From Rothia terrae (lineage in GTDB: Bacteria > Actinomycetota > Actinomycetes > Actinomycetales > Micrococcaceae), in contig NZ_JAAXPV010000005.1 of the NCBI RefSeq assembly GCF_012396615.1, positions 62,001-126,000 on the forward strand: a stretch of 64,000 nucleotides of DNA. The letters are read 5' to 3'. The notes under the pieces are model-generated. The model was given only the letters and a program-made list of their open reading frames with translations. It did no database searches and had not been told where the DNA came from. The first letter of the stretch is position 1. Each line of letters starts with the position of its first letter. The position numbers and the translations under genes were made by a program. This document shows positions 1 to 64,000 of this stretch, piece by piece.

Positions 1-122
1 GGTGTATGTTCAAAGGGTTATACCCATAACATCTTGCGAAAACAGTAACCACAGCCGTGCGGTATCGGTGTCCTAGCACCAGATTTTCCGAGAACCGTGC
101 ACGGAATATAAAAGATATAAAA

Positions 123-236
123 ATGAAATTTAAACGTAAGCCACTGGATAAAAACGGCAATACTATTTGGGACTACGTGTGGCTTGTGATCCTGCTAATC
201 GTCATCGTAAAAATCATTGAAATTCTGCCCTTTTAG
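123..236 (+). CDS. Small single-pass membrane protein, 37 aa
   Basis: This is a short open frame with ATG at 123 and TAG at 234-236. It starts with a charged stretch (MKFKRKPLDKNG) followed by one strongly hydrophobic segment of about 18 residues (roughly residues 18-35). The layout is that of a one-pass membrane peptide with a basic N-terminus. The next gene, also a membrane protein, begins 53 bases downstream on the same strand, so the two may be co-transcribed. The upstream bases are A/T rich and lack a clear Shine-Dalgarno site, which lowers confidence. No family is recognised. Confidence 0.45.
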   Translation: MKFKRKPLDKNGNTIWDYVWLVILLIVIVKIIEILPF

Positions 237-289
237 AATGAACCACTTTTCTTGCCGTCAGGCGAGACAATACCTAAAGAAACGCGGAA

Positions 290-721
290 ATGTCAGAAAA
301 TCCCAAGAGCCAGGCCACTGGCACTGCTCAGGCTAAGAACCCCCAATCTTCGATTGCAACTGAAAGGCTCAAGCGCACCTATGAACACGGCAAAAAATCA
401 CTCACAGCTCTGTCAATAGTTTTATTAGCAGGTGCTAGCGATGTGATTGAGTCAGCGTTCAAGCGGTCGCTCACTGTCGATGGCATCATTATCTGGCTTC
501 TTGGTGTGACGCTTCTTGCCTATCTTTACTTTAAAAAGAAATCTTTGAGCCCAAAGATTCTGGGGTTCACGTTTGTGGTTATCGCTTTACTAGCAGTGAT
601 GCTCCACTCCATTAATGGGTCTTATACCTGGCTCATGGCGAAGTATTCAATGGTCTATGGCATGGCTTATCTTTCTCTGACATATCTCATCGCTAAATAC
701 AGGGCAAGGGCAGAAGACTAG
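290..721 (+). CDS. Hypothetical membrane protein, 143 aa
   Basis: I do not recognise this family. The first 35 residues are polar and rich in Gln, Ala and Lys. Hydrophobic stretches follow at about residues 37-50, 65-82, 90-107 and 113-134, suggesting three to four transmembrane segments with a cytoplasmic N-terminus. A basic loop (YFKKKSLSPK) separates the second and third segments, in line with the positive-inside rule. It follows the 37-residue membrane peptide and precedes a sugar kinase that has its own weak start region. The composition matches the neighbouring genes and nothing suggests recent transfer. The call as a real gene is good; its function is unknown. Confidence 0.7.
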   Translation: MSENPKSQATGTAQAKNPQSSIATERLKRTYEHGKKSLTALSIVLLAGASDVIESAFKRSLTVDGIIIWLLGVTLLAYLYFKKKSLSPKILGFTFVVIALLAVMLHSINGSYTWLMAKYSMVYGMAYLSLTYLIAKYRARAED

Positions 722-779
722 TCCGACGAAATGCGTTCACTCCCGCGTCTCTTCCCACCTCCGCTGGTAAAATTGAGCC

Positions 780-1724
780 ATGTTGACTGTAATTGGCGAA
801 GCCCTCGTAGACGTTGTTAAGCGTCCTGACCAGCCCGAACACGCGTACCCCGGTGGTAGCCCCATGAATGTGGCTATCGGTGTCTCCCGTTTGGGGCACA
901 AGACCCAGTTCATCGGCCGCTATGGTGACGATGAGAACGGCAAGATGATCGACGCGCACCTGCGCGACTCCGGCGTCCTTCTGCCTGTGGGTGCTGACGA
1001 TAAAAAGACATCCACTGCCCAGGCGAACATCGGTGAAACCGGTGCCGCCGAATACGAGTTCGATCTCGACTGGTCGCTGGACGCCGCCAAAGACACCCTG
1101 CGCGAGGTTGCCGAAACAGCCACCGCAATCCACGTAGGCTCCATTGGCGCAATGCTCGAACCCGGTGCAACAACCGTCGTCGAAACCCTGCAGGCAGCAG
1201 ACGGCACCGCGCTGATTACCTATGACCCCAACTGTCGTCCCACTATCATTCCCGACTCATCCGTCGCCCGCGACTGGGCGCAGCGCATCATCAAGCACGC
1301 CGATGTTGTCAAAGCAAGCGACGAAGACCTGCTGTGGCTCTACCCCAACCGCACCCTCGAAGACACCGCGAAAGCATGGCTAGAAGCCGGCGTTAACCTC
1401 GTGATCGTGACGCGCGGTGAAATGGGCCCCTGCGCCTTCACCAAGTCAGTGGCATCCCAGGGTGTCGCAGTCCCCGCGCACAAGGTAGAGGTAGCAGACA
1501 CCGTCGGCGCTGGCGACTCCCTCATGGCAGCGCTGATTACCACCCTGTTAGACCGCGGCATCGAAGGTGCAGACGCATCCACAAAAATTGAGGAACTCAC
1601 CGAAGACGACCTCAAAGAAATCCTGACCTTCAGCGCAACCGCAGCGGGCATCACCGTCTCACGCGCAGGCGCTCACCCGCCCACTCGCGAAGAACTAGAG
1701 ACGGTTCTCAGCAACCGCAAGTAA
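780..1724 (+). CDS. PfkB-family sugar kinase (fructokinase-like)
   Basis: A cytoplasmic ATP-dependent carbohydrate kinase of the ribokinase/PfkB fold, 314 residues, the usual length. PfkB signature 1 is at about residues 25-39 (GGSPMNVAIGVSRLG). Signature 2 (DTVGAGDS) is at about 240-247, and its Asp246 is the expected catalytic base next to the anion hole. An ITYDPNCRP segment near residue 150 matches fructokinases better than ribokinases, so transfer of phosphate to fructose or a related sugar is the likely reaction. The exact substrate is inference. The start is the ATG at 780; the upstream Shine-Dalgarno is weak. A hairpin follows the gene. Confidence 0.88.
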   Translation: MLTVIGEALVDVVKRPDQPEHAYPGGSPMNVAIGVSRLGHKTQFIGRYGDDENGKMIDAHLRDSGVLLPVGADDKKTSTAQANIGETGAAEYEFDLDWSLDAAKDTLREVAETATAIHVGSIGAMLEPGATTVVETLQAADGTALITYDPNCRPTIIPDSSVARDWAQRIIKHADVVKASDEDLLWLYPNRTLEDTAKAWLEAGVNLVIVTRGEMGPCAFTKSVASQGVAVPAHKVEVADTVGAGDSLMAALITTLLDRGIEGADASTKIEELTEDDLKEILTFSATAAGITVSRAGAHPPTREELETVLSNRK

Positions 1725-1735
1725 TCGCTAGTATG

Positions 1736-2339: not shown

Positions 2340-3182
2340 ATGATCAAACTGATCGCCAGCGATCTTGATGGCACGCTGATTGGGCACGACTTTAAGTTCC
2401 GCCCGCGCACGCTTGCCGCGCTGAAATCCGTGCAGGACGCTGGCGTCCAGGTGGTTCTGGTGACGGGGCGTCCGCACCGCTGGCTAGAAGCCGTGGTGGA
2501 GCAGATGGACGGCTACAACTCTTACGCTATTTGCTCAAACGGTGCGGTGACCTACCACCTGGGTCGCGCCGAAGTTGTTTCAACGCACACGATGGCAGGG
2601 CGTGAAATCCACCGCGTCCACCAGCTGTTAGAGAAGGAATTTCCCGAGGCTCGTTTTACCGCAGAAACGCTGGACACAGCCTACCTGCAAAATGCTGAGG
2701 ACACTCCCGCGCAACCCGGTGGTCCGCTAGAGAATATCGAGCTGGTCTACGGCCCGTTAGGCGAGGTTCTGCCTGCTGATGCGCAGGTCGTGAAGTACCT
2801 GATGTTCTCAGGGGCTTACCAACCAGAAACGCTGTTGAAAAAGGTGCGCGATATTGCGGGGGAGCGGGTCTCGGTTACCCACGCTGTACCGGGTAACCCA
2901 TTGATTGAAATGTCACTACACGGCATGAATAAAGGCTCTGTTCTAGCTGAGTTCGCCCGCGAAAGAGGAATTACCCCGGACGAGGTGGTTGCTTTTGGCG
3001 ATATGCCCAATGACACCGAGATGCTGAGATGGGCAGGTCGAGGTTACGCAATGGCATCAGGTGCTCCTGCGCTGATTGAATCTGTAGAACGCGTGTGTCC
3101 GGGATTCGACGAAGACGGTGTGGCGCAGAAAATCGAGAAGCTCCTCGGGCTATCTGAGGGTTTCAACGACATCCAACGGTAG
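2340..3182 (+). CDS. HAD-superfamily Cof-type phosphatase
   Basis: A cytoplasmic Mg-dependent phosphatase of HAD subfamily IIB, 280 residues. Motif I is SDLDGTL with nucleophile Asp8 and acid/base Asp10. Motif II is the Thr of VLVTGRP near residue 40. Motif III is the Lys of MNKGSVL near 200, and motif IV is VAFGDMPNDTEML near 220. A cap domain lies between motifs II and III. Enzymes of this type dephosphorylate sugar phosphates, nucleotides or flavin precursors, and the substrate cannot be told from sequence. It is probably translated together with the PEBP gene upstream. The start is the ATG at 2340, right at the predicted N-terminal strand. Confidence 0.9.
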   Translation: MIKLIASDLDGTLIGHDFKFRPRTLAALKSVQDAGVQVVLVTGRPHRWLEAVVEQMDGYNSYAICSNGAVTYHLGRAEVVSTHTMAGREIHRVHQLLEKEFPEARFTAETLDTAYLQNAEDTPAQPGGPLENIELVYGPLGEVLPADAQVVKYLMFSGAYQPETLLKKVRDIAGERVSVTHAVPGNPLIEMSLHGMNKGSVLAEFARERGITPDEVVAFGDMPNDTEMLRWAGRGYAMASGAPALIESVERVCPGFDEDGVAQKIEKLLGLSEGFNDIQR

Positions 3183-3310
3183 CTATTATTCTTTCGATTT
3201 GAAGTTTTTCTTCGTAATATAGGGTGAGATTAGTCCCTATTCTAGGACGCTTAATGCGCGGCTAGGTGAAACCCTCATTAGGTTACTACTCGGTAGTGTA
3301 AGTTGAGCTT

Positions 3311-4995: not shown

Positions 4996-5218
4996 GGTCA
5001 CCGGTATCGACAAGGACGCTTGTCTGCTGTCGTCCTATATGGTGGCGGATACGCGCCGGAACGAGGGTTCGTGTTGGATTTTATGTCAACGTAAAGCTTA
5101 TGGGTACCGGTGTATCCCCTTGGAAATTCAGGTCAAAATCACCTTTTCTTCACTGTCTAGATAAGCGCATCTGCCTGCCTACTAGGCATTATTTACCGAA
5201 AATTAACAGGTTTCTTCT

Positions 5219-5623: not shown

Positions 5624-6061
5624 ATGATTCCCGGAGAATACATTCTTTCCAAAGACCCCGTGATCTGCAACGAAGGACGCGAGGCAATCACCCTTGAGGT
5701 GCTCAACCGTGGCGACCGCCCCGTTCAGGTAGGTTCACACTTCCATTTTGCTGAAGCTAACCGTGCCCTCGAATTTGATCGTCAGGCAGCACTAGGATGC
5801 CGCCTCGACATTCCTGCTGGCACCGCGGTTCGCTTGGAACCCGGTGATAAGACCACCGTGAGTCTGATTCCGATGGGTGGCGATCGCATTGTGTACGGCT
5901 TCCGCGACCTTGTTGACGGTCCGCTGGATCCTCATGAAGCAACCACTTTCGACGATGAAGCTTACGAGTACAAGCAGCGTCCTCGTCGTTCATCGGTAGG
6001 TGGCGACGCGCCTCAGCCGCTCAATGAGCGCGAAGGCTATTCGAACGAGACTAACGACTAA
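5624..6061 (+). CDS. ureB: Urease subunit beta
   Basis: The beta subunit of urease, 145 residues. The conserved core IPGEYIL, the VQVGSHFHF motif and NRALEFDR occupy the first 50 residues, and the YGFRDLVDG segment lies near 100. The last 35 or so residues are a polar, disordered-looking extension that goes beyond the roughly 100-residue core. Such tails are common in actinobacterial UreB. The spacing of 9 bases from ureA and 17 bases to ureC indicates translational coupling in one transcript. Confidence 0.97.
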
Positions 6062-6078: not shown

Positions 6079-7794
6079 ATGAGTTTTGAACTGAGCCGCG
6101 AACGCTACACCAGCCTTTACGGACCGACCACCGGCGATGCGATTCGCCTGGCAGATACCGAGCTGTTCGCAGAAGTTGAATACGACCTCACCACCCCCGG
6201 CGAAGAAGCTGTGTTCGGTGGCGGCAAGGTTGTTCGTGACGGCATGGGCCAGAACAGCCACATGGTGCGCGATATGGGTATTCCCGATCTCGTGATCACC
6301 AACGTTGTGGTCATTGACTACACCGGTATTTACAAGGCTGACGTTGCTGTCCGCGACGGTCACATTATGGCAATCGGTAAAGCAGGCAACCCGCACACCA
6401 TGGATGGTGTGACCATTCCTATTGGTGTGGCAACCGATATCGTGGCAGGTGAGGGCAAGATTCTGACCGCTGGCGGTATCGACACCCACATCCACTTCAT
6501 CAGCCCCGACCAGATTGAAACCGCTCTGGTTTCAGGTATCACCACCATGTTCGGTGGCGGTACCGGCCCCAGCGAATCGACCAAGGCAACCACCATCACT
6601 CCCGGTGAGCGCAACATCCACAACATGTTGCAGGCTTTTGAAGAGTTCCCCATGAACTTTGGTCTGCTGGGCAAGGGCCACGGCTCGTCCATCTCACCTA
6701 TGGCTGAGCAGATTCGCGCCGGTGCTGTGGGCCTGAAGATTCACGAAGACTGGGGCGCAACCCCGTCATCCATCAACACTGCGCTTGAGGTAGCTGACCA
6801 GTACGACGTTCAGGTGGCAATTCACACTGACACCCTGAACGAGGCTGGCTTTGTTGAAGACACCCGCGCAGCAATCGCAGGACGCGTTATCCACACCTTC
6901 CACACTGAAGGTGCGGGCGGCGGCCACGCACCGGACATCATCGAGTTGGCTGGCGACGAGAACATCCTTCCCGCATCCACCAACCCGACTCTGCCCTACA
7001 CCAAGAACACTCTTGAAGAGCACCTCGATATGCTCATGGTCTGCCACCACCTCAACCCCTCAATCCCTGAGGACGTTGCCTTCGCAGACTCCCGCATCCG
7101 CAAAGAAACCATTGCGGCTGAGGACGTTCTGCAGGACATGGGCGTGTTCTCCATGACCTCGTCTGACTCGCAGGCTATGGGACGCGTGGGCGAAGTAATC
7201 ATGCGCACCTGGCAGGTTGCGGACTCCATGAAGAAGCAGCGCGGCCAGCTACCTGAGGACGAAGGTAAAACCGGCGATAACTTCCGCATCAAGCGCTTTA
7301 TCGCTAAGTACACCATCAACCCGGCTATTGCGCACGGTATCTCGCACGTGGTGGGTTCTGTTGAGCCCGGCAAGTTCGCTGACCTGGTGCTCTGGGAACC
7401 GCAGTTCTTCGGTGTTAAGCCCGATCTGATCATCAAGGGTGGTCAGATGGTCAACAGCATCATGGGTGATCCCAACGCATCGATTCCTACCCCGCAGCCA
7501 CGCTGGTACCGCAAGGCATTCGGTGCCTACGGAAGCGCTGTTCACAGCACCTCCATCACCTTCATGTCGCAAGCATCCCTGCTCAACGGCGTCTCACGCC
7601 AGCTGGGTTTGAAGAAGCACGTGCGCGCGGTCAAGGGTATTCGCGATCTCAAGAAGTCAGATCTGAAGCTCAACGGCGAAATGCCCAAGCTCAGCGTTGA
7701 CCCCGAGACCTACGAAGTACGCGTGAACGGTGAAGTAATCACCGCTAAGGCTCAGGACGAGCTGCCCATGGCTCAGCGCTACTTCATGTTCTAA
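6079..7794 (+). CDS. ureC: Urease subunit alpha (catalytic)
   Basis: The catalytic subunit, 571 residues, carries the dinuclear nickel site. All key residues are present by alignment with Klebsiella UreC: nickel ligands His137, His139, His249, His275 and Asp363, the bridging carbamylated Lys220 (in [12 protein letters not shown]), the substrate-binding His222, and the flap Cys322-His323. The complete active site argues for a working enzyme. A GCTGAGGAG Shine-Dalgarno precedes ATG 6079. It is followed after 12 bases by ureE, so structural and accessory genes share one message. Confidence 0.99.
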
Positions 7795-7806: not shown

Positions 7807-8298
7807 TTGATTATTACCGAAATTCTAGGCAATACTCACGAGGCTGACGGTGCAGCGCTGGTTGAGGGACGCCACCTTGAAAAAGTCGTCCTGCCCAGTG
7901 CTGACCTGGTCAAACGCATTCAGCGTTTGACCACCGACCACAATAACGAGGTAGGTTTGCGCCTGCCCGCCAGCTCACCCGATCTCAAAGACGGCGATAT
8001 TCTCGCGCTTGAAGATTCCGGTGAGCACGGCAATGCCATTGTGGTCTCGGTACTGCCCACCGACGTGCTGGTGATCGCGGCGTCCTCCATTGTAGAAATG
8101 GCGTTCGTGGCGCACTCACTGGGCAACCGTCACCTTCAGGCACAGTTCTTCGACACCGACAGCGAATATCAGGCTGCAGTCATGGTTGTGCAGTATGACC
8201 ACACCGTCGAAGACTTCCTCAAGCACCACAAGGTCGCGTACTCGCGTCAAGAACGCGTCATGCCCGTGCCCTTCCGCCACGCTGAGCACACGCACTAG
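7807..8298 (+). CDS. ureE: Urease accessory protein UreE (nickel metallochaperone)
   Basis: UreE dimers deliver nickel to the UreG-containing activation complex. The protein is 163 residues, with an N-terminal peptide-binding-like domain and a C-terminal metal-binding ferredoxin-like domain. The VMPVPFRHAEHTH tail gives a short His cluster for nickel in place of the long poly-His tail of some species. The start is a TTG at 7807, chosen because AAGAAGGAAAA lies 4-14 bases upstream and the translated N-terminus (IITEILGN) matches the family. ureF begins 3 bases after the stop. Confidence 0.95.
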   Translation: MIITEILGNTHEADGAALVEGRHLEKVVLPSADLVKRIQRLTTDHNNEVGLRLPASSPDLKDGDILALEDSGEHGNAIVVSVLPTDVLVIAASSIVEMAFVAHSLGNRHLQAQFFDTDSEYQAAVMVVQYDHTVEDFLKHHKVAYSRQERVMPVPFRHAEHTH

Positions 8299-9185: not shown

Positions 9186-9800
9186 ATGGATCCGATTATT
9201 ATTGGTATTGGCGGCCCCGTGGGCGCCGGCAAGACCCAGCTGATTGAACGCATTTCACGTTCTATGAGCGATGAAATTTCAATGGCTGCAATCACCAACG
9301 ATATTTACACCATTGAGGACGCTAAGATTCTGGCGCGCAATTCCGTGCTCCCTGAATCTCGCATCATTGGTATTGAGACCGGCGGTTGCCCGCACACCGC
9401 TATTCGCGAAGACACCTCGATGAATGAGGCAGCTATTGAAGAGCTGAAGAAGCGTTTTGATGACCTGCAGATCATCTTCGTGGAATCCGGTGGCGATAAC
9501 CTTTCGGCAACCTTCAGCCCCGAACTTGTTGACTTCTCTATTTACGTGATTGACGTGGCGCAGGGTGAGAAGATTCCGCGTAAAGCTGGTCAGGGCATGA
9601 TCAAGTCAGATCTGTTCGTAATCAACAAGACCGACCTCGCACCGCACGTGGGTGCTGACCTGGACGTTATGGAAGCCGACTCCAAGGTCTTCCGCAAGAA
9701 CAAGCCCTACGCTTTCACCAACCTGAAGACCGACGAAGGCCTTGAGACCGTGGAGAACTGGATTCGCCACGACGTGCTCATGCTCGACCTCGCATCCTAA
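9186..9800 (+). CDS. ureG: Urease accessory GTPase UreG
   Basis: A SIMIBI-class GTPase, 204 residues, that couples GTP hydrolysis to nickel insertion into urease. The P-loop GPVGAGKT covers residues 10-17. The nickel-binding Cys68-Pro-His70 lies in [31 protein letters not shown] and the guanine-specificity motif NKTD follow. ATG 9186 is preferred over an upstream in-frame TTG at 9168 because GAAAGAAGG is correctly spaced before it and family members start at this point. UreD follows after 6 bases. Confidence 0.97.
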
Positions 9801-9806: not shown

Positions 9807-10673
9807 ATGGCTACTGAACACGAAACCCATAACTGGGCAGGCGTGCTTAAGCTCGGTGTCACCGAACGCAATGGACGTTCGGTGGCTAAGAGCCAGTACC
9901 ACGAGGGCGCGTTGCGTATTCTTCGCCCGCATTACCTGGATGCGTCCGGGCAGGTCACCTACACCGCCATTAACCCCGGCGGTGCATACTTTGGCGCGGA
10001 CCGCTACCTGCTGGATCTGAAGGTTGAGCAGGGCGCGTCACTACTGCTGACCACGCAGTCGGCAACCAAGGTGTACAAGACTCCGCAGGGTCCCGCCTAC
10101 CAAGAGATGACGGTGAATCTTGGCCCCGGCGCTGTCTTCGAGTATGTGCCTGACCAGCTGATTGTCTACCGTGAAGGCGCGTACAAACAGCGCACACTGG
10201 TGACCATGGATCCTACCGCCTCGCTAGTGATGTCAGAAATCATCACGCCGGGCTGGGCGCCGGACGGCTCGTCCTTCAAATACCAAGAGTTGCGTATGCG
10301 CACCGAAATTCGCGTGACGGGGGAGGGCGGTGACAAGCGTCTAGCGGTTGATCAGCTGCGCCTCAAGCCCAGCGAACTCGGTGATATCCGCGGCGTCGGG
10401 CTCATGGAGGGGCATAGTCACACCGGGCAGCTACTCCTAGCGGACGCCCGCATCGACGATGCCCTCTATGACGAGCTGGCGGCAATGGTGGAAGGCTCCA
10501 ATACGCTCTCTGGCATCACCCGTGCAGGACGCGACGCTCACGGTGTGCACTGCGTGGCGGTGCGCTCCCTGGCGAACTCCACCGCCGACATTGCTCAGTT
10601 GCACCAGGACATCATTAACCTCACCCGTAAAACCTGGCGTTACCAGGCGAAACTTGATCTACGAAAGCACTAA
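9807..10673 (+). CDS. ureD: Urease accessory protein UreD (UreH)
   Basis: UreD, 288 residues, is the scaffold that binds apo-urease directly and recruits UreF and UreG during nickel insertion. Recognisable features are the N-terminal LRPHYLD and NPGGAYFGADRY region, the QSATKVYKT segment, and the GPGAVFEYVPDQLIVY core, which is the best-conserved part of the family. The order ureABCEF-GD is a common actinobacterial arrangement. It ends 18 bases before the urea transporter gene. Confidence 0.95.
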   Translation: MATEHETHNWAGVLKLGVTERNGRSVAKSQYHEGALRILRPHYLDASGQVTYTAINPGGAYFGADRYLLDLKVEQGASLLLTTQSATKVYKTPQGPAYQEMTVNLGPGAVFEYVPDQLIVYREGAYKQRTLVTMDPTASLVMSEIITPGWAPDGSSFKYQELRMRTEIRVTGEGGDKRLAVDQLRLKPSELGDIRGVGLMEGHSHTGQLLLADARIDDALYDELAAMVEGSNTLSGITRAGRDAHGVHCVAVRSLANSTADIAQLHQDIINLTRKTWRYQAKLDLRKH

Positions 10674-10691: not shown

Positions 10692-11573
10692 ATGAAGATT
10701 CAGGATGTTCTACGGGGTGTCTCCCAAATCTACTTTGCGCGAAGCTCCGCCACCGGCGTCCTGATTCTTGCAGGCGTTGCACTTTTTGATCTGCGTACTG
10801 CCGTGCTCATGGCACTCGGTGCTCTCGTGCAGACACTGACCGGTCTTGCCGTGAAGCGGCCTGAGGCTGTGACTGACGGTCTCTTTGGCTTCAACGGCGC
10901 GCTCGTTGGTGCTGCCGCCGGTGTTCAGTTGCAGAACTGGCCCATCGGTTTAGCAATGACAGTGGTCGGTGCTGCACTGTGCACCCCCGTGCACTTTGCC
11001 TTTGAAAAGCTCTTTGCCACCAAAGCTCTGCGCGGTGCGGCACTTCCTGTCTCTACCGCACCGTTCTGCACTGTCACTGGCATCCTCATCACCCTGCTCG
11101 CAGGCTTCAAAGCAACCGGCGGTGCGTTGAGCTCCGGAACCGGCGTGAACGGGGTTTATGTGGGGCTCACCAACAATATCGCCGAGGTTGTTCTTGCTGA
11201 CGGTGCGGTGACGGGCGTTCTGATTGCAGCAGGTTTGTTTGCAGCATCCCTCGTGCTTGGTGGCTTCGCCCTGTGGGGTAGCGTACTGAGCCTGCTCATC
11301 GCGTCCCTGGTGCACGGCGGTCTTGCTACCACCTCAACCGGACTCTTCGGTTACAGCGCGGTGCTCGTCTCTATCGCTATCGGTGCCACCTTCTGGAACG
11401 ACCGCCCGCTATCAGCGCGCATCACCGGTGCAACCGTGGGCATCCTGCTCACCCTGTGCATCCAACCCCTGCTGACACTGACCCCGATTCCCGTCTACAC
11501 CTGGCCCTTCCTGCTCTCCATGTGGATTGTGATGCTGGTAGGCTCAAAGTTCACACCAACCGCCCAGAAATAG
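10692..11573 (+). CDS. Urea transporter (UT family)
   Basis: An integral membrane urea channel of the UT/Yut type, 293 residues with about ten hydrophobic segments. The paired signature segments FGFNGALVGAAAG and, in the second half, FGYSAVLVSIAIGA mark the internally duplicated fold of this family. It lets urea cross the membrane down its gradient, feeding the urease encoded just upstream. An AAAGAGGAAA site precedes ATG 10692. The position directly after ureD and the matching strand make co-expression with urease likely. Confidence 0.9.
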   Translation: MKIQDVLRGVSQIYFARSSATGVLILAGVALFDLRTAVLMALGALVQTLTGLAVKRPEAVTDGLFGFNGALVGAAAGVQLQNWPIGLAMTVVGAALCTPVHFAFEKLFATKALRGAALPVSTAPFCTVTGILITLLAGFKATGGALSSGTGVNGVYVGLTNNIAEVVLADGAVTGVLIAAGLFAASLVLGGFALWGSVLSLLIASLVHGGLATTSTGLFGYSAVLVSIAIGATFWNDRPLSARITGATVGILLTLCIQPLLTLTPIPVYTWPFLLSMWIVMLVGSKFTPTAQK

Positions 11574-44450: not shown

Positions 44451-44468
44451 GCGCGGGCGTCCTAGACG

Positions 44469-52376: not shown

Positions 52377-52724
52377 GACGCGCGTCCGCCGCCCGGCTAC
52401 TCGCAGGCAGCTTGTTGCACCCCGCAACCACCGGCGTCCTACCCGACTACCCGGGGAGACTACAAAAGTTGCACTGTGACCACAAAACTCTCAAAAACAC
52501 CTCAAAAAACGGTGTACTTTGAGAGTTTCGTGGTCACTATGAAGCAAACGTGGTCACCTGCGCAGAACCGCATCATCGACAACCCCTAACCCTCATAACC
52601 GTGCATTCGACGCACGATTTTGAGGGTTTTGCTCTCATTACTGTTTTGCTCATCAAGCAAGAGGTATACCCTTGCCAAGGATGTAAATACCCGAGCCCGC
52701 CATCCAAACGAAACGAGGAAGACT
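52377..52724. repeat. 348-base intergenic stretch: GTGACCAC palindrome copy 2 and a terminator
   Basis: Copy 2 spans 52476-52557. GTGACCAC (52476-52483), AAAACTCTCAAA, then TTTGAGAGTTTC, GTGGTCAC (52530-52537), and a second GTGGTCAC at 52550-52557. Downstream, AACCCTCATAACCGTGC (52588-52604) pairs with GCACGATTTTGAGGGTT (52612-52628) with two mismatches and is followed by T-rich sequence, a likely terminator. The promoter of the MFS gene must lie in the last 100 bases. Confidence 0.75.
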
Positions 52725-54254: not shown

Positions 54255-54321
54255 CTTGCCACTATGCGGGATGAGCGGAGGCGAGCAGGACGCGTGCCGG
54301 CTGGGCTACGCGTCCGCTAGA

Positions 54322-56199
54322 TTATGCACCGGGCCAGGGCTTTGCCATAAGCGGGGTCTTTTGGGTGAGTCGGTACATGAATGCAGCCATGACGTCGCGA
54401 GTGACGGGATCACCGGGGCGGAAAGTGCCGTCACCGTAACCGCGTGTCACACTCTGATCTTTGATCCATGCAATTTCTTTTTGAAATTCAGAGGTACGAG
54501 TGTCAGGGAAGCCACTTGTGCTGTTGGTGGCGGGGCTGCCCGCTGCGCGATACATGAAAGCCGCCATGGACTCACGGTTAATGGCATCTTCTGGACGGAA
54601 GGTGCCATCGCGATAACCTGTGGTGATTCCCACGGACTTCAGCCAAGTGATTTCTTTGTAGAAGACGTGGTTGGTGGGAACGTCGCTAAACGGTGACTGG
54701 GCGGGCGGTGTGAACTTGGGTGATCCCGCGAGGCGATACATGAATGCAGCCATAGCCCCTCTTTCAACGTTGGCGAGGGGACGGTACTGACGTCCTGCCG
54801 GGATTGACCAGCCAGCGGTGACACCAGTGTGTGCTAGCCACATGGTTTCGTTGTAGAAAGTGTCACCTGCTTTGAAGTCAATGAAAGATACAGGAGCTGG
54901 TTGTTTTACACTGGCAGACCACGCGAATTCGCTCTTCTTGGGCGCTGCGAGCAGGCCGTTCGGTCCGAACTTTTGCAGGGTTCCGATGTGCAAGAAACGC
55001 TGATTGCTAACGCAGGCGGTGGAGTTTTCGAAGAAGACTGCTTCTGCCTGGCAGTTGCCGTCGGCGCGGGTTTCGTAGCCTGCGCGCTCAAAGCGCCATG
55101 CTGCGGTTGCTAGGCGAAGCTGGCCGGATGCGTCCACAAACGCGTTGGAGCCGCCGGGGCCGCCTAAGCCCCAGGTCGCATCGTTAGAAAGCACGGGGGT
55201 GTGGCTGACGCGTCGGCAGGGGCCGGTTGCGCTGTCACATTCTGCGTAGCCGGTGCGGTAGTCAAGAGTTGAGTACTGGCTACCGGAGTAGAAGAGATAG
55301 TGCTTGCCCTGCCACTGAACCATGGAGGGATTTTCAATCACGGTTTCTTCCCAGGTTTGGGTGTCCCAGGTGCCGGTCTTTTTCATGACGCTGGTTTCGA
55401 GCAAGCTACGCTGTGTTGAGCCTGCTGCCCAGCCGGTGCCCGAGGAGTTAAGCTCGCGCACCCAGAGGTTGGTCTTGGTGGCTTTGGATGCGTTGCCCTC
55501 GTTCTTCCAGTAGAGGTAGAGCTTGCCGTCGGCGTCCTTGTAGAGGTCGGGGTCGATGGCGCCGGCGGGATCGTCTGAGCAGACGAAAGGTGTTGATGAG
55601 GTGTCGAAGAAGGGGCCGGTGGGCTTATCGCCTTGAGCTAGACCAATGCAGAAGCGGTTGACGCCGTTCACTGTTGAGGTGGTGCGTGCTGCGTACGCCA
55701 TTACGTACTTGCCGTTTGCTGCCTTTTCAACGGAGGGCGCCCAGATGTCGTAGCACCCTGAAACTGAGGTGTTGCATGAACCCTGGCGCATTGCCCATTT
55801 GCCGGGGAGTGCGAGGGCGTCATTGTAGTAGTAGTCGCCAGCGTTGAGAACCTGACGTCCGTCGGGGCTGGTCTTTGGCGGGGTGTAACGCTGGTTGGTG
55901 GTCCAGTTTTTGAGGTCTTTGGAGGTAATCAGCGGTACGTTGCGTCCGCCGCCGGTGGTTCCATAGGCGTAGTAGGTGCCGTTTTCTGCGTAGACGTTGG
56001 GGTCTGCGAGGTCGCCGATGGTGATGTTGTTGACCGGTACCCACTGGCCGGTGGTTACGTAGGGTTTGTTGGGAACAATCCAGGGGCCGTCAGGGTAAGC
56101 ATTTGCTGCGGGAGCTGCTGTTAGAAGGGTGAGGACGCCTGTGAGGACTGCGATGAGCCAGCGCCTGAAGGTGCGCGCGGGGGAGGCTACAGAAGACAT
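54322..56199 (-). CDS. Secreted GH43-type glycoside hydrolase with three SLH domains
   Basis: A 625-residue exported protein. Residues 1-34 form a Sec signal peptide (FRRWLIAVLTGVLTLLTAAP, ANA cleavage). Residues 55-430 form a five-blade beta-propeller of the GH43 type with the triad Asp66 (LADPNVY), Asp215 (AIDPDLYKD) and Glu288 (VIENPSM). Such enzymes remove arabinose or xylose from polysaccharides. Three SLH repeats follow at about 437-490, 500-552 and 562-610 (each ending AAFMYRLAGSP or similar). SLH domains attach proteins to cell-wall-linked polymers, so the enzyme should be surface-held. The substrate specificity is inferred from the family only. Confidence 0.88.
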   Translation of the reverse strand: MSSVASPARTFRRWLIAVLTGVLTLLTAAPAANAYPDGPWIVPNKPYVTTGQWVPVNNITIGDLADPNVYAENGTYYAYGTTGGGRNVPLITSKDLKNWTTNQRYTPPKTSPDGRQVLNAGDYYYNDALALPGKWAMRQGSCNTSVSGCYDIWAPSVEKAANGKYVMAYAARTTSTVNGVNRFCIGLAQGDKPTGPFFDTSSTPFVCSDDPAGAIDPDLYKDADGKLYLYWKNEGNASKATKTNLWVRELNSSGTGWAAGSTQRSLLETSVMKKTGTWDTQTWEETVIENPSMVQWQGKHYLFYSGSQYSTLDYRTGYAECDSATGPCRRVSHTPVLSNDATWGLGGPGGSNAFVDASGQLRLATAAWRFERAGYETRADGNCQAEAVFFENSTACVSNQRFLHIGTLQKFGPNGLLAAPKKSEFAWSASVKQPAPVSFIDFKAGDTFYNETMWLAHTGVTAGWSIPAGRQYRPLANVERGAMAAFMYRLAGSPKFTPPAQSPFSDVPTNHVFYKEITWLKSVGITTGYRDGTFRPEDAINRESMAAFMYRAAGSPATNSTSGFPDTRTSEFQKEIAWIKDQSVTRGYGDGTFRPGDPVTRDVMAAFMYRLTQKTPLMAKPWPGA

Positions 56200-56664
56200 A
56201 GGTTCTGGTCTTTCATGTATAAGTGGGGGATGTGTTGCCTGCTTTTTCGGATCAAACCCCGATGGTGCACAGGCAACGTTTAGAGTAGCACGCGATTGTA
56301 ACCAATTCTGTGCTTTGTCCCCTATCTAGCCTATGCTTGTTGTGCATCCAGTTCGCGGTCTTTAGGTAAGAGGTGGCAGCGGCTCTCTTGGTCAAACATC
56401 CCTCAACCGCAACACTTACCACGCTGAGAATCGTTAAAAGCATCAAAAGTGTGAGTTTAGGTGCAAATAACCTGTTATACACCTGTTATTAAGTGGGTTT
56501 ATGTGCGATTTTTTTGAGAAAAACCCCTTGGGTTTACCCCTAACATTGGTAGACTTGTAAACAGGCACGACGCACGCGCCCGCCACGACAGGTAAGCGCA
56601 GGCGTCCTCAACTACACAGACCCGCCACCAAGGGCGGGCGAAAAATCCAATTCAAGGAGTCAGC
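56200..56664. other. 465-base intergenic stretch before the aldolase gene
   Basis: No gene is supported here. A -35-like TTGGGT at 56528-56533 and a -10-like TAGACT at 56550-56555 are spaced by 16 bases and may form the promoter of the aldolase gene. The minus-strand part near 56200-56300 is the upstream region of the GH43 gene. Confidence 0.35.
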
Positions 56665-57690
56665 ATGCCTATTGCAACCCCGGAAGTCTACGCAGAAATG
56701 CTCGACAACGCGAAGAACAAGGGCTTCGCGTACCCCGCAGTTAACGTCACCTCATCACAGACCCTGAACGCTGCAATCCAGGGCTTCGCAGAAGCTGGCT
56801 CAGACGGCATCATCCAGGCTTCAACCGGTGGCGCAGCATACTGGTCAGGTTCATCCAAGAAGCACATGGTAACCGGTGCTCTTGCAATGGCAGCATATGC
56901 ACGCGTTGTTGCTGAGCAGTACGACGTTAACATCGCACTGCACACCGACCACTGCCCCCAGGACAAGCTGGATGAATACCTGCTTCCCCTGCTCGCAGAG
57001 TCAGAAAAGGCTGTTGCACGCGGCGAAGACCCCATCTTCAACTCACATATGTGGGACGGTTCAGCAATCGCACTGAACGAAAACCTGAAGATCGCTGAAG
57101 ACATTCTTGCTCGTACCAACAAGGCAAAGATCGTTCTCGAGGTTGAGATCGGTGCTGTTGGTGGCGAAGAAGACGGTGTTGAGGGCGCAATTGACGACTC
57201 ACTGTACACCACCATTGCAGACGCTCAGCTGACCGTTGACTCACTGGGCCTCGGTGAAAACGGCCGTTACATGGCTGCACTGACCTTCGGTAACGTTCAC
57301 GGTGTTTACAAGCCCGGTAACGTTCACCTGCGCCCTGAGCTCCTGAAGGAAATTCAGGACGCTATTGGTCAGAAGTACGGCAAGGATAAGCCCTTCGACC
57401 TCGTCTTCCACGGTGGTTCAGGTTCAACCGATAAGGAAATTGCTGACGCTGTTTCATACGGTGTTATCAAGATGAACATTGATACCGACACTCAGTACGC
57501 ATACACCCGCCCCGTTGCAGATCACATGATGCGCAACTACGACGGTGTGCTCAAGGTTGACGGCGAAGTTGGTAATAAGAAGACCTACGATCCTCGCGTA
57601 TGGGGTGCTGCTGCTGAAAAGGGTATGGCTGCACGCGTTGTTGAGGCTGCAGCTCAGCTCGGTTCAACCGGTACCTCACTCGGCAAGTAA
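56665..57690 (+). CDS. fba: Class II fructose-bisphosphate aldolase
   Basis: A zinc-dependent aldolase, 341 residues, that splits fructose-1,6-bisphosphate in glycolysis and acts in reverse in gluconeogenesis. Zinc ligands lie in HTDHCPQDKLDEY, EVEIGAVGGEEDGVEG, FGNVHGVYKPGNV and FHGGSGSTDKEI. Codon use is strongly biased, as expected for a highly expressed gene. CAAGGAG lies before ATG 56665. It is followed by hairpin-rich sequence and the DUF3151 gene, an arrangement common in actinobacteria. Confidence 0.97.
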   Translation: MPIATPEVYAEMLDNAKNKGFAYPAVNVTSSQTLNAAIQGFAEAGSDGIIQASTGGAAYWSGSSKKHMVTGALAMAAYARVVAEQYDVNIALHTDHCPQDKLDEYLLPLLAESEKAVARGEDPIFNSHMWDGSAIALNENLKIAEDILARTNKAKIVLEVEIGAVGGEEDGVEGAIDDSLYTTIADAQLTVDSLGLGENGRYMAALTFGNVHGVYKPGNVHLRPELLKEIQDAIGQKYGKDKPFDLVFHGGSGSTDKEIADAVSYGVIKMNIDTDTQYAYTRPVADHMMRNYDGVLKVDGEVGNKKTYDPRVWGAAAEKGMAARVVEAAAQLGSTGTSLGK

Positions 57691-58049
57691 AGCACGGGAG
57701 CCCCTACGGGGCTCGCAAGAGTGCTTTGCTTGCTTCGAGCACAGCGAAGCGGCGAGAAGAGGACAGGCGGCGTAACCGCTCCTCAGATAAGCACTTAATT
57801 TGCTTTAGATCTCTGTAAAAGAGCGTTCTCCTAATTATTGGGGAGCGCCCTTTTGCATGCCCGTGTATTTGTTGCTGTGCCTGCGTCCTAGGTGCCGTAA
57901 CCACGCCAGAACCTTTCAAAACTCGACACTTTGGGGTCGTGTTTTGAAGGGTTCTGGCGTGGTTGTCATTGGGGGTGGAGTTTCGCTTGGTGGTGCCCTC
58001 CGAGTAGTCTGAAGGTGAGTTCTAACAACGACTAAAAGGAGCATTAGCC
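57691..58049. other. 359-base intergenic stretch with terminators and a long palindrome
   Basis: GAGCCCCTACGGGGCTC forms a compact hairpin at 57709-57725. AGAGCGTTCTCC and GGGGAGCGCCCTTTT (about 57822-57854) form a second one with a T-run, the likely aldolase terminator. A third, long palindrome lies at 57901-57962: CCACGCCAGAACCTTTCAAA pairs with its complement with one wobble. This last one is not part of the other families. Confidence 0.65.
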
Positions 58050-58466
58050 ATGTCACTTGCCGGTAAAAACCTGTTGGACGGCCCCGCGCCCACCTACCTG
58101 CCCGAAGAAGCCGAGGTAAAAACTGCTCTTGCCTCTGACGCATCCGCTGCTGAGGTGGCGCAGAAGTTCCCCAAGTCTTCGTTGGCGTGGGCAACTTTGG
58201 CTGAGCAGACGCTGGCTGAAGGACGCTTGATTGAAGGGTACGCGTTTGCGCGGGTGGGTTACCACCGCGGGTTGGACGCCCTGCGCGGCAATGGTTGGAA
58301 GGGCCACGGACCTATTCCGTTTGATCACGAGCCTAATCGCGGCTTCTTGAAGGCACTGTACTTGCTGGGCAAGGCAGCGGATGAAATTGGTGAGGCCGAT
58401 GAGGCGGAGCGCATTGAGAAGTTCCTCGATGACTCTGATCCCACTGCGCGTAAACAACTTTTATAG
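58050..58466 (+). CDS. DUF3151 family protein
   Basis: A 138-residue soluble protein of a family typical of actinobacteria. Segments FPKSSLAWATLAEQTL, GYAFARVGYHRGLDALRGNGWKG and PNRGFLKALYLLGKAADEIGE are the recognisable parts; the first two resemble helical repeats of TPR type. The function is unknown. In many actinobacteria the gene lies downstream of class II aldolase, as here, hinting at a role near glycolysis or cell-wall sugars; that is inference. AAAGGAGC precedes ATG 58050. Confidence 0.88.
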   Translation: MSLAGKNLLDGPAPTYLPEEAEVKTALASDASAAEVAQKFPKSSLAWATLAEQTLAEGRLIEGYAFARVGYHRGLDALRGNGWKGHGPIPFDHEPNRGFLKALYLLGKAADEIGEADEAERIEKFLDDSDPTARKQLL

Positions 58467-59908: not shown

Positions 59909-60994
59909 ATGCGCATCAGTATTCCCCGTGAAATTAAGCCCGGCGAACAGCGCGTAGGCGCAACCCCCGACGGTGTAAAAGCTCTCATCGAAGCAGAGCA
60001 CGAAGTCTTTATCGAAAAGGACGCTGGCAACGGTGCCGGCTTTACCAATGAGCAGTATCAGGACGCCGGCGCGCAACTGGTATCCGCTGATGAGGCCTGG
60101 GAAAAGGCCGAGCTGCTGGTCAAGGTTAAAGAACCTATCGAATCGGAATACAAATACTTTCGCGAAGACCTCACCCTCTTCACCTACCTACACCTGGCAG
60201 CCGAAGAAAAGCTCATCAAGGCACTGCTGGACGCGAAAACCCGCTCCATTGCCTATGAAACAGTAGCTGTGGGACGCGCCCTTCCCCTTCTTCTGCCCAT
60301 GTCAGAAGTTGCAGGACGCCTGGCGGCGCAAGCATCCGCCCAGTACCTGCTCAATAGCCAGGGTGGCCCCGGCATGCTTCTGGGCGGCGTGCCAGGTGTT
60401 GCACCGGCACGCGTCGTTGTGCTCGGTGGCGGCAACGTCGGCACCCAGGCGGCACTGCTGTCAGTGGGACTCGGTGCTGAAGTCACTATTCTTGAAGGCT
60501 ACGGCCCGCGCGTTCGCGAGCTCTCCACACAGTTCGGCTCAACCGCGCGCGTACTCACCAGCACCCCGGCGAATGTTGAACGCGAAATTCTGGATGCCGA
60601 TGTTGTTATTGGCTCTGTGCTGGTTCCCGGCGCTAAGGCGCCCAAGCTAGTGCGTCGCGAGCACCTGTCAAAGATGAAGCCCGATACCCTGCTGATTGAC
60701 GTGGCGATTGATCAGGGCGGTTGTTTTGAAACCTCGCATCCGACCACCTATGATGACCCGATCTACGAGGTAGACGGCATCCGCCACTACTGTGTTGCGA
60801 ACATGCCCGGTGCCGTGCCGCGCACCTCAACCATTGCGCTGACGGATGCGACGCTCGCGTACGTTCTCAAGCTGGCTGCCGGTATTGATGAGGCACTGGC
60901 TACTCACGATGATCTGGCGAAGGGCTTGAATACCGATGCCGGTAAGATCACGCACCCCGGTGTGGCAGCGGCTTACCCGGAGCTCGCGTCCTAA
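59909..60994 (+). CDS. ald: Alanine dehydrogenase
   Basis: An NAD-dependent alanine dehydrogenase, 361 residues, that converts L-alanine to pyruvate and ammonia and back. The active Lys is in LLVKVKEPIESEY near residue 72-75 and the catalytic His in FTYLHLAAEEK near 94. The NAD site is VVVLGGGNVGTQAA near 169-182. DVAIDQGGCFETSHPTTY is the conserved C-terminal loop. GGAAAGGAACGG precedes ATG 59909. It could capture ammonia made by urease or release ammonia from alanine; that link is inference. Confidence 0.95.
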   Translation: MRISIPREIKPGEQRVGATPDGVKALIEAEHEVFIEKDAGNGAGFTNEQYQDAGAQLVSADEAWEKAELLVKVKEPIESEYKYFREDLTLFTYLHLAAEEKLIKALLDAKTRSIAYETVAVGRALPLLLPMSEVAGRLAAQASAQYLLNSQGGPGMLLGGVPGVAPARVVVLGGGNVGTQAALLSVGLGAEVTILEGYGPRVRELSTQFGSTARVLTSTPANVEREILDADVVIGSVLVPGAKAPKLVRREHLSKMKPDTLLIDVAIDQGGCFETSHPTTYDDPIYEVDGIRHYCVANMPGAVPRTSTIALTDATLAYVLKLAAGIDEALATHDDLAKGLNTDAGKITHPGVAAAYPELAS

Positions 60995-61671: not shown

Positions 61672-62133
61672 CTACCAGAGCACCGCGTCCTTGGGCTTCT
61701 CGGCGCGGATGCGGTCTTGCTCTTGCTGTGGAACAGGATAGAACCAGGGCATTGCCTTGAGCACGATAAAGAATGTAATTACAAAAAATAAGAGTGCGGC
61801 AAGCACAGCCGACCATAGGTGACGCGGTTCAGTGAAGGATGCCAGCATCCCCACAATGAACAAGCCGACGAAGGTCATGTCGAGCGGTTTAAAGGACGAA
61901 TACGAGGTGCCGCCTACTGAAAAATTATTCCTGTGGTGGAAGAAAGCGTAGAGGAGCATAGCGCCAAGCACGATAAGGGTGAGCCACCACCAGTTCAAAA
62001 AATGAGCAAGGGGGAAGGATGCAAAAACCAGCCCCATCCCCGTGGCGACATCCCACGGCGCGCCCTGTCTGCACTCCACAATCTCGTTCTTGGTCGTTTC
62101 AACATAGCGCGGGTGATTACGCATCTCTGCCAT
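61672..62133 (-). CDS. Small membrane protein, paralogue 2 of a local family
   Basis: A 153-residue protein with four hydrophobic helices and charged ends. CRQGAPWDVATGMGLVFASFP near residue 22-42 resembles the TGxPxW motif of its neighbours. AAGGAGTCC lies before ATG 62133. The C-terminal MPWFYPVPQQEQDRIRAEK end is polar. It is the most divergent of the four paralogues. The function is unknown; the group could be a membrane stress or transport accessory family. Confidence 0.65.
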   Translation of the reverse strand: MAEMRNHPRYVETTKNEIVECRQGAPWDVATGMGLVFASFPLAHFLNWWWLTLIVLGAMLLYAFFHHRNNFSVGGTSYSSFKPLDMTFVGLFIVGMLASFTEPRHLWSAVLAALLFFVITFFIVLKAMPWFYPVPQQEQDRIRAEKPKDAVLW

Positions 62134-62222: not shown

Positions 62223-62690
62223 CTATCTAGCCTCTGCCGAGGCGTCCTCGCGCACAATCCACGGGGTATTGAACTTAGCGTTCAGAACGAGCACGACGTA
62301 AATCGACAGAGCAAGCACTAACGCCTGGATCGTTTCGATTGCTTGGTGCCGGATGAGTAGCACAACCACCGGAATGACCACGGCAATATTGACGGCGCTC
62401 GAGAGAATGTAGCGCTTGGGATTATTGCGCCTGTCTGTAAAACGCGAATACCCAAAGAGGATGAACTGGCCGCGTTTTACCGACCACCACCACTGCACTG
62501 CAAAGCCCACCAAGAAAACAACGAACATTAGAAAGTGCGCGCCATGTTTGGGAATCACCATGAACATCAGCGCGGGAATGTGCACGGTCATGAGCGCCGC
62601 ATCCAACCATGTAGGCGCACCGGTGACGAGATACTCGTGCTGACGGCGCGGCGTGAGATTGTGTTCTGCAGAAGCATTGGCGGGTCTCAT
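62223..62690 (-). CDS. Small membrane protein, paralogue 3 of a local family
   Basis: A 155-residue protein with the motif HEYLVTGAPTWLDAALMT near residue 19-36, four hydrophobic helices and the ending LNAKFNTPWIVREDASAEAR. It starts at ATG 62690 inside the last codons of the gene upstream (ATGA overlap), with GGAGGCACG as its ribosome site. It is the closest relative of the frameshifted gene just upstream, with LNAKFN-P and EDA shared at the C-terminus. The function is unknown. Confidence 0.7.
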   Translation of the reverse strand: MRPANASAEHNLTPRRQHEYLVTGAPTWLDAALMTVHIPALMFMVIPKHGAHFLMFVVFLVGFAVQWWWSVKRGQFILFGYSRFTDRRNNPKRYILSSAVNIAVVIPVVVLLIRHQAIETIQALVLALSIYVVLVLNAKFNTPWIVREDASAEAR

Positions 62691-63162
62691 CGTGCCTCCA
62701 TGCGGGGGAGCGCCGCGTCCTCGATATGCACTGACGGCACATTGAATTTAGCGTTGAGAGTGAGAATAGCGAATGATGCCACCCCGATAAGCGCCGCTGT
62801 TCCAGGGGGGACTTTAATCTGCTGGAAAGTACAGATGAGAAAAAAGGCCGTGACCGCGGAGAGGACGACATAGCACAACACAGTCCTCACGGGTTGAGTT
62901 CGCTTATCTATAACGCTACGGGTGCTGGGCTTGGGTTTGCGCACTTTGCTGAGAAAGAATAATTGGGCAATGCGGCCATAAGAACGAGAAGCGATAGCAG
63001 CGGCGAGGCATTATCCATCATCATAATCATCATGATGAGAGGGAATAACCAATACTCTTGCGCAGCTTCGGCCCACGTCTGCGCGCCCGAGGCGATGTAG
63101 GCGTGCGGTTCTCTTTCTTTGGCGCGATCAGGGACGCGCGGGGTCGGTCCGGCGGACATCAT
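62687..63162 (-). pseudogene. Small membrane protein, paralogue 4, frameshifted
   Basis: The start at ATG 63162 (or the adjacent ATG at 63165; AGGAGG upstream) gives about 70 residues with PHAYIASGAQTWAEAAQEYW, the family motif, and two helices. It then leaves frame near 62950-62980. The other part, FLSKVRKPKPSTRSVIDK to the end LNAKFNVPSVHIEDAALPR, continues in a second frame to 62687. One base change joins them into a protein of about 158 residues that matches the gene at 62223. The tandem pair is a duplication of which one copy is broken, or the assembly has an indel. Confidence 0.65.
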
Positions 63163-63181
63163 TATCCTCCTGAGATTGGTT

Positions 63182-63540
63182 CTTATCTCAGTTTACCAAA
63201 GAGGTGAGGAGGCTAGCCGCGGCGGATGCGAGTGAGCGAGCGTACAAAGAGCCGCGGCTAGAAGATACACCGAACTGGCCTGCTCACGCGGTGTGTTTGT
63301 GTGAAACTTTTGATGTATGTGAGAGGGGCTGTGGTGGCATTTTCCGAGCGAGTGAGGAAATAAAAATGCCACCACAGAAAGCTGATCGACCGGCCCGCTC
63401 GCGCGATGTTTCTATGTGAAACTTTTGATGTATGTGAGAGGGGAGGGATGGACCATTTTTCACCTGAAAAACGGTCCATCCCTCCCCTCTCACGGTTAAC
63501 AGCCGCACCCGGCGGCGTCAGCCCCTCTCACGGTTGGTAA
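63182..63540. repeat. Tandem repeat and palindrome region
   Basis: TGTGAAACTTTTGATGTATG followed by TGAGAGGGG occurs twice, at 63299-63327 and 63415-63443, so a unit of about 116 bases is repeated. Each unit ends in a palindrome: CTGTGGTGGCATTTT (63329-63343) pairs with 63362-63377, and GTGAGAGGGGAGGGATGGAC (from 63434) pairs with the complement ending at 63493. The loop of the first holds a CGAGCGAGTGAGGAAATAAA sequence also present near 23640. No gene is supported here. Confidence 0.7.
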
Positions 63541-63574
63541 CCCGACCTATATGAGTGATTGGTGGGTAGGTCCG

Positions 63575-64000
63575 CTACTTGCCATCCCAGCCTGCGCAAC
63601 CCCACGCGTCCTGCTGGGCCGAGCAGTTAGCGTCCACCAGCCCTGCTTCGGTGCGCCACACCTGAATAGTTTGCGGTGCGGACGCGACCTCATTAACGCC
63701 GTTCACCGGCAGCCACGGGCCGCCCTCCACCGAATAACGTCCGGTGTAAACAGTGGTTACGGATGCCTGATAGTCACCGGTCTGCGTGTACACGTGGGTG
63801 GTGGGGGTAGGAACGTCCCATTGATCCTCGCCCAGGGCATACCCCGGGTTGGTGCTGTCCAACGTCTGACCGTCGCCGTACGTGAACGCGAAGCGCGACG
63901 GCGTAGCAATAACATCAACGTTGCGACCGTTAATCTGCGTAGTAAAACGCTGCTCCTGCGGAACCGCCCACAGGTTCGTGTTGTAATTCTTCAGCGTGTG
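63575..64000 (-). CDS. C-terminal part of a secreted PKD-like protein, open at the window edge
   Basis: The frame is open from the right edge (64000) down to TAG at 63575-63577 and gives at least 141 residues. FAFTYGDGQT, then THVYTQTGDYQASVTT, resembles the end of a PKD-type beta-sandwich. The C-terminal CSAQQDAWGC and neighbouring Trp/Gly suggest a disulfide. A TTG inside the frame is not a plausible start since coding continues upstream. Similar short PKD-like proteins of Micrococcaceae are secreted. The role is unknown. Confidence 0.6.
   Translation of the reverse strand, partial: HTLKNYNTNLWAVPQEQRFTTQINGRNVDVIATPSRFAFTYGDGQTLDSTNPGYALGEDQWDVPTPTTHVYTQTGDYQASVTTVYTGRYSVEGGPWLPVNGVNEVASAPQTIQVWRTEAGLVDANCSAQQDAWGCAGWDGK

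Follow-up and report, generated by a model that had tools for sequence, protein, structure and literature searches.

A short over-represented word in Rothia terrae as a possible DNA uptake sequence in an actinobacterium

INTRODUCTION

The available parts of two papers (PMC7811141, PMC5031613) name sequence-specific DNA uptake for two families, the Pasteurellaceae and the Neisseriaceae. Here we analyze a 64-kb stretch of the genome of Rothia terrae (C37:62001-126000; "the window" refers to this whole stretch of 64,000 nucleotides), in which the word AGGACGC and its reverse complement, GCGTCCT, are far more frequent than expected. An initial annotation of the window had proposed a DNA uptake-type word in an actinobacterium, and the host, a Rothia, does belong there. 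With moderate confidence, we favor the reading that (A)GGA[C/T]GC(G) serves as a DNA uptake word in this Rothia species and has spread because uptake is biased toward it. Our opinion is nearly evenly divided on the wider claim of a third, independently evolved uptake-word system, with an actinobacterial host, an Flp/Tad pilus, Rothia species that use a C or a T dialect, and a single genome that has both.

The DNA uptake sequence (DUS) of the Neisseriaceae is described in the available text of PMC3630211 as a 10-mer with about 1,900 copies in N. meningitidis and N. gonorrhoeae, with dialects along the species tree and with inverted repeats. Like the DUS, which is bound by the minor pilin ComP, the Rothia word has copies in the order of thousands, inverted copies, and variants among species. 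Unlike it, the word is unrelated in sequence, has 6 to 8 letters versus 10 to 12 in DUS, and occurs in an actinobacterial host with tad genes, where the type IV pilin family PF07963 is unmatched in the R. terrae genome and both the receptor and the uptake bias are putative. The uptake signal sequence (USS) of the Pasteurellaceae is, in the portions at hand of PMC12616744, a short word with many copies and two dialects. The Rothia word is similarly short and numerous, at about one copy per 1.3 kb, but it is unrelated to the USS word AAGTGCGGT/ACAAGCGGT, and AT-rich flanks were not seen around it. The USS of Haemophilus has AT-rich flanks and a density similar to this one. Chi, KOPS, and HIP1 are also short over-represented words, and the Rothia word resembles them in being short and over-represented genome-wide; it has neither the polarity of Chi and KOPS nor the palindromic form of HIP1.

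For transformation, the nearest model is the Flp/Tad system of Micrococcus luteus, a member of the same family as Rothia; R. terrae likewise has two tad clusters plus ComEA and ComEC homologs. According to the accessible part of PMC4322843, M. luteus cannot be transformed unless both of its tad clusters are in place, and the term "uptake sequence" occurs 0 times in two papers on this species (PMC4322843, PMC8467076), which thus do not mention an uptake word. No uptake word for Rothia or any other actinobacterium was found in the open-access literature, as represented by partial texts. If our reading is true, sequence-specific uptake would extend to a further phylum and a different pilus, and self-recognition in transformation would arise repeatedly. 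The change of a genome from one word to another could then be studied in nature, with direct observation of a switch between dialects or of a receptor that accepts two. The missing genetic transformability of Rothia has been called the major obstacle to its study (PMC12613889, in the text available), and an uptake word bears on the practical transformability of these bacteria.

RESULTS AND DISCUSSION

Abundance in the window and in the genome

The window contains 75 exact copies of the word, 36 as AGGACGC and 39 as GCGTCCT. The initial count of about 74 (35 + 39) was right for GCGTCCT and one short for AGGACGC; among its eleven example positions, ten were right and 5976 should read 5977. Markov models of order 1, 2, and 3 predict 10.1, 6.8, and 15.6 copies, respectively, the first in agreement with the expectation of about 10 given initially. 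Low-order models thus fall short of the observed count, and AGGACGC ranks first among the window 7-mers under all three. An order-5 model yields 77, but it is built on 6-mers, and two of these, GGACGC and AGGACG, already carry the excess. All exact matches are listed below (+, AGGACGC; -, GCGTCCT), with the between-gene and gene-edge labels taken from retrained gene calls.

821..827, -, word
973..979, -, word
2434..2440, +, word
3244..3250, +, word, between genes
5013..5019, +, word, between genes
5674..5680, +, word
5977..5983, -, word (5976 initially)
6879..6885, +, word
8080..8086, -, word
9316..9322, +, word
10526..10532, +, word
10756..10762, -, word
12508..12514, -, word
13832..13838, +, word
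14722..14728, -, word
15142..15148, -, word
15241..15247, +, word, at gene edge
15557..15563, +, word
15763..15769, -, word
16342..16348, -, word
17119..17125, +, word
17250..17256, -, word
19063..19069, -, word
19347..19353, -, word
19517..19523, +, word
20112..20118, -, word
21071..21077, -, word
21940..21946, -, word
24891..24897, +, word
25200..25206, +, word
25564..25570, -, word
28048..28054, -, word
29440..29446, +, word, arm 1 of within-gene inverted pair
29455..29461, -, word, arm 2 of within-gene inverted pair with 29440
30364..30370, -, word
31483..31489, +, word
31588..31594, -, word
33315..33321, +, word
34074..34080, +, word, arm 1 of inverted pair near 3' end of open reading frame (ORF) 31895-34207
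34094..34100, -, word, arm 2 of inverted pair with 34074
34364..34370, -, word
36689..36695, -, word
38702..38708, +, word, between genes
39404..39410, +, word
40262..40268, +, word
41425..41431, -, word
44457..44463, -, word, between genes
44915..44921, +, word
45076..45082, -, word
45239..45245, +, word
45428..45434, +, word
46335..46341, -, word, between genes
46500..46506, -, word, between genes
48908..48914, -, word
50200..50206, +, word
51366..51372, +, word
51664..51670, +, word
52375..52381, +, word, at gene edge, inverted pair with 52434
52434..52440, -, word, between genes, inverted pair with 52375
54169..54175, +, word
54287..54293, +, word, between genes
55532..55538, -, word
56132..56138, +, word
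56602..56608, -, word, between genes
57356..57362, +, word
57883..57889, -, word, between genes
58220..58226, +, word
60018..60024, +, word, direct pair with 60060
60060..60066, +, word, direct pair with 60018
60313..60319, +, word
60986..60992, -, word
61685..61691, -, word
62242..62248, -, word
62715..62721, -, word, between genes
63606..63612, -, word
1..64000, both strands, T form GGATGCG/CGCATCC, 50 copies, e.g., 1574, 6972, 7093, 30353, 46349, 60735

The 50 copies of the T form (both strands summed) compare with 11.8 and 10.5 expected under the order-1 and order-2 models. Ten whole and 2 partial sites of the word lie between genes in 8,910 bp by the first gene calls, and 11 and 2 by the retrained ones.

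The window comes from genome G000 (2,482,397 bases in 41 contigs), one of a set of 35 Rothia genomes, the others being cited below by handles such as G001 and G027. Its genus follows from the aldolase of the window, which matches R. nasimurium at 86% and three Kocuria at 75 to 81%, and from the four counts of AGGACGCG and its control, which are identical in that R. nasimurium genome (irhom_31, G219) and in G016, a member of the set. G000 contains 931 + 938 = 1,869 copies in the two orientations, or about one per 1.3 kb, compared with 206 + 255 = 461 copies of the reversed word. The spread of the copies is fairly even, with a variance/mean ratio of 1.4 over 83 bins. The window itself is denser in the word than the genome average (75 versus 48; p 2e-4).

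Independence from codon usage

The claim that codon bias alone is not enough to explain the word was borne out. Shuffling synonymous codons within the window genes (300 shuffles) gave a mean of 18.0 copies (sd, 3.5; maximum, 29), versus 63 observed in called genes. On 829 kb of G000, AGGACGC was found 497 times in genes versus 146 expected (3.4-fold) and 108 versus 12.6 times between genes (8.6-fold), and AGGACGCG 216 versus 42.6 and 51 versus 3.4 times, where "between genes" holds some coding DNA because a number of genes escaped the simple gene caller, which assigned 654 of the 829 kb as coding. The word also tops the between-gene 7-mers in a 432-kb sample of G000 (56 versus 4.9 expected). 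All six frame and orientation classes in that sample are raised, from 2-fold to 15-fold (observed/expected, 6/0.4, 87/42, 62/5.6, 38/5.8, 35/13.5, and 50/8.4); the initial annotation had stated that the word appears in all codon frames and in intergenic DNA. As the reversed word ignores codons, it is a poor control, and our main claims rest on the codon-shuffled values.

Codon choice in G000 is pulled toward the word. Of 532 glycine codons that precede CGC, 343 (64%) are GGA, compared with 12% of all glycine codons, and the serine codon following GCG is TCC in 221 of 415, versus 18% overall. The same glycine preference is seen in G027, with GGA in 38 of 85 glycines before CGC versus 9% overall; in ten other sampled species the fraction is 0.06 to 0.24.

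An origin of the word in base composition, in codon usage, or in a preference for codon pairs is most improbable in G000, where the between-gene counts refute it. AGGACGC does suit frequently used codons in one reading frame (NAG GAC GCN), many other words deviate from the codon shuffle by up to about twofold, and in the R. nasimurium complex, an eight-species cluster within the Rothia set that includes G016, much of the excess over the reversed word is lost on correction, with 1.6- to 2.0-fold left. However, the excess in G000 is also strong in frames that need uncommon codons (the classes with 62 versus 5.6 and 50 versus 8.4), and orthologs in other species, at 70 to 73% protein identity, are poor in the word (3 sites in G006 versus 31 in G000; 9 in G002 versus 30).

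Form, orientation, and arrangement

The word is best written, approximately, as (A)GGA[C/T]GC(G). In 1,446 aligned GGACGC sites of G000, clear information is present only at one letter on each side, with A at 42% and G at 10% in the preceding position and G at 44% and A at 13% in the following one; AT-rich flanks were not seen at these sites. In a substitution scan of AGGACGCG, changes of the end letters were tolerated with a loss. Among the 18 single changes of the core GGACGC, C to T at the fourth letter stands out at 113/43 in genes (2.7-fold) and 20/4.2 between genes, while 15 of the 17 others lie at 0.2 to 1.5 in genes.

The two orientations are balanced at 302/306 by contig strand and likewise at 302/306 by majority gene strand, and the GC-skew strand gives 282/326, which is little polarity; replication polarity was judged here by these three proxies. 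Thirteen consecutive 20-kb stretches of C1 all contain both orientations. An apparent strand polarity was present only in the raw hit order, in which forward matches mostly came first, and it was gone when the stretches were read.

Equal orientation had been taken to argue against Chi- or KOPS-like sites, and these figures agree. They weigh on the possibility, which we regard as unlikely, that the word is a genome-wide binding site of a chromosome or recombination protein (Chi-like, KOPS-like, HIP1-like, or a nucleoid protein). The high density and fairly even spread would suit such a site, and HIP1 is a precedent for an abundant word of unsettled use. On the other hand, the lack of polarity speaks against Chi and KOPS, and the word differs from its reverse complement, which speaks against HIP1. 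A non-polar protein with thousands of sites may still be at work. A binding site would not predict the scarcity of the word in two contigs (C19 and C22, see below), though their recent arrival could account for it.

GGACGC neighbors 6 to 50 bp apart in G000 are preferentially inverted when the pair is not wholly within a gene (24 inverted, 8 direct; p 0.007), and within genes the numbers are even (52 inverted, 51 direct). Among 251 perfect between-gene hairpins of G000, 14 have the word in the stem, 11 as GGACGC and 3 as GGATGC. Such hairpins could mean that the word belongs to a short dispersed repeat, or to a terminator, that has been duplicated to many places in the genome. This idea is largely refuted, as the 1,446 GGACGC sites share almost nothing past one flanking letter and most AGGACGC sites lie within genes (497 versus 108), and we give it very little credence. 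A depletion in divergent promoter regions, suggested by a first sample (4.8 versus 11.7 and 12.8 per 10 kb), was dropped after a larger one gave 7.6 versus 9.3 and 10.1 per 10 kb (p 0.55).

One-letter variants in related species

A one-letter variant of the word, GGATGCG, was found in the related species G006 and G001, in line with the comparison proposed initially. By plain counts, AGGACGCG is more than twofold over the reversed control in only 2 of the 35 Rothia genomes, G000 (821/193) and G027 (632/123), and CGGATGCG reaches at least about threefold in nine (G000, G001, G006, G013, G014, G015, G025, G026, and G028), by a control that ignores codons. Codon correction was run on samples from twelve species. 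After it, GGATGCG is raised in G000 (2.7), G006 (2.7; 93/34.2), G001 (2.1; 79/38.3), and G014 (1.8), weak in G027 (1.3), and absent as a signal in G025 (0.9). GGACGCG is raised in G000 (3.8), G027 (5.4), and G017 (2.2), near 1 (0.8 to 1.1) in G005, G008, G014, and G025, and low in G006 (11/23.5) and G001 (15/27.9), both 0.5, and in G002, G030, and G003 (0.2 to 0.4). The T form being up where the C form is not (G006, G001), with both in G000, looks like a pattern of dialects at the level of sequence counts. CGCATCC is the top codon-corrected 7-mer in the first G006 sample and is not the top one in G001. In a tree of a single gene, comEC, from 30 of the 35 genomes, G001 and G006 cluster with G034, and G000 and G027 branch early without a settled order.

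Genes common to G027 and G000 hold 41 and 40 sites, of which 9 coincide versus 5.3 expected from a 13% baseline; mostly different positions are what would be expected of a spreading tag. In the R. nasimurium complex, AGGACGC stands at about 1.8 to 2.0 times the codon null in genes. Since codon bias explains much of the excess over the reversed word there, plain counts overstate the number of word-bearing species. Shifted words were observed in samples of this complex (G018, G019, and G020) after codon correction, namely GCGGACG (41 versus 13.3) and GGCGGACG (24 versus 4.2), and possibly represent a further dialect; GGCGGACG also stands at 19 versus 5.2 in G005. Outside the genus, in a set of 197 Micrococcaceae (13 Rothia, 184 others), no other genus was seen above 1.7 times the reversed word, the highest being G075 (1,192/712).

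As the interchangeable letter is a C/T transition, the variants could also stem from context-dependent mutation or repair, by C methylation and deamination or by Vsr-like T-to-C repair, which would make GGACGC and GGATGC and leave the word without function. The species with one form fit this: G006 and G001 have more GGATGC and less GGACGC than expected, the reverse holds in G017, and the sums of both 6-mers are near the codon expectation (128 versus 106 in G006, 113 versus 100 in G001, and 89 versus 81 in G017), which also counts against an uptake word. But both forms are up in G000 (GGACGC, 1,250 versus 484; GGATGC, 802 versus 484), and in G027 GGACGC is threefold (118 versus 37) with GGATGC flat (42 versus 44). 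C/T conversion cannot explain these two genomes, because the mass balance fails there. With the next letter included, the sums exceed expectation even in the T species (GGAYGCG, 56 versus 31 in G006 and 48 versus 34 in G001). The preference also reaches both flanking letters, and an excess of inverted pairs only between genes is not predicted by mutation. We judge this explanation improbable overall, although a C/T conversion may apply in G006, G001, and G017.

Competence genes

Competence genes, which the initial annotation had named as something to look for, are present in G000. ComEA (SLBB and HHH domains) adjoins ComEC, and there are two tad clusters, each with a T2SSE ATPase. One has two T2SSF proteins and a TadE match at C1:144390-144518, and the other contains TadE and a DUF4244 protein that appears to be Flp-like. 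Two small ORFs adjoining a tad cluster (L096:4562-4765 and 3711-4187), read as Flp-like and TadE-like, matched no Pfam family. The type IV pilin PF07963, a short model, had no match in G000 and exceeded the cutoff in 1 of the 35 Rothia genomes.

A model of biased uptake and its weak points

In the model that we propose, the word on free DNA would be recognized and bound by a putative surface component of the Flp/Tad-pilus competence apparatus. Word-bearing DNA would then enter via ComEA/ComEC more often and recombine into the chromosome. A new word created by mutation would be reimported more often than the wordless version, and copies would accumulate in either strand, within and outside genes, against codon preference. 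Receptor differences would decide whether a related species carries C or T in the word; R. terrae, with both forms, may have a receptor that accepts both or be part-way through a switch. We infer biased uptake, together with its receptor, drive, and dialects, because the codon-defying spread, the absence of polarity, the letter-wise preference, the one-letter variants, and the inverted pairs fit together.

Two contigs of G000 with apparent metal-transport genes (C19 and C22; L241, L244), chosen post hoc because they were low in the word, have 4 sites versus 30.4 expected and fall below their own codon null (2 versus 4.3 and 1 versus 3.3). Their GC content is about 0.60 to 0.63, versus about 0.53 for the genome. 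GC content and genes suggest that they were acquired, the metal-transport genes being recognized by eye from protein starts. The rRNA-gene contig of G000 is without AGGACGC.

Several observations weigh against an uptake word, in addition to the near-neutral 6-mer sums and the post hoc choice of these contigs. The proposal had, for G000, passed the codon, low-order Markov, and polarity tests, and both competence genes and variants were found, but the competence genes do not separate word-rich from word-poor species. All 35 Rothia genomes have ComEC and TadE (TadE over the curated cutoff in 33), word-poor ones included. As the word-poor G002 and G030 keep homologs of most tad/com proteins, this machinery is necessary background and not evidence by itself. 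A comparison of the tad/com loci of 7 species for a receptor candidate gave none that stood out. The informative part of the word is short (6 to 8 letters), and the two exceptions in the substitution scan, both altering the first G, are themselves frequent: ACGACGCG at 100/33 in genes (3.0-fold) and 6/3.5 between genes, and ATGACGCG at 49/25 (1.9-fold) and 13/4.7.

AGGACGC is also raised between genes where genes show little excess, in G003 (5 versus 1.6), G001 (5 versus 2.1), G005 (24 versus 3.9), G017 (12 versus 2.6), and G008 (4 versus 0.8). G002 likewise has 9 versus 1.3 copies between genes and hardly an excess in genes (28 versus 21). In the G000 hairpins, GGACGC is equaled in frequency by three other 6-mers of the stems. 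GGACGC is in 2 of 37 stems of G002, GGATGC in 1 of 20 of G003, and the word in none of those of G027, G006, G001, G005, and G030 (0 of 43, 25, 16, 27, and 13, respectively). Last, the contig L246, plasmid-like by eye, has 3 sites versus a codon null of 0.9.

Other words

Other repeated words were observed in the same data. GCTAGC/AGCTAGC is 2.3- to 2.7-fold over the codon expectation in G030, a species without the word. CATTGAG occurs 84 times within a single 20-kb stretch of G014 (C1:100001-120000), which was part of its sample in the twelve-species codon correction and absent from an earlier one; a repeat-rich gene is the probable source. Between the genes of the window, GTGACCA and GTGGTCA were counted 15 and 13 times, respectively. 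The palindrome-like GGTGACCAC/GTGGTCACC is over-represented in the window as well (10 copies versus 0.6 to 1.4 expected), above all between genes, and is perhaps the operator of a regulator.

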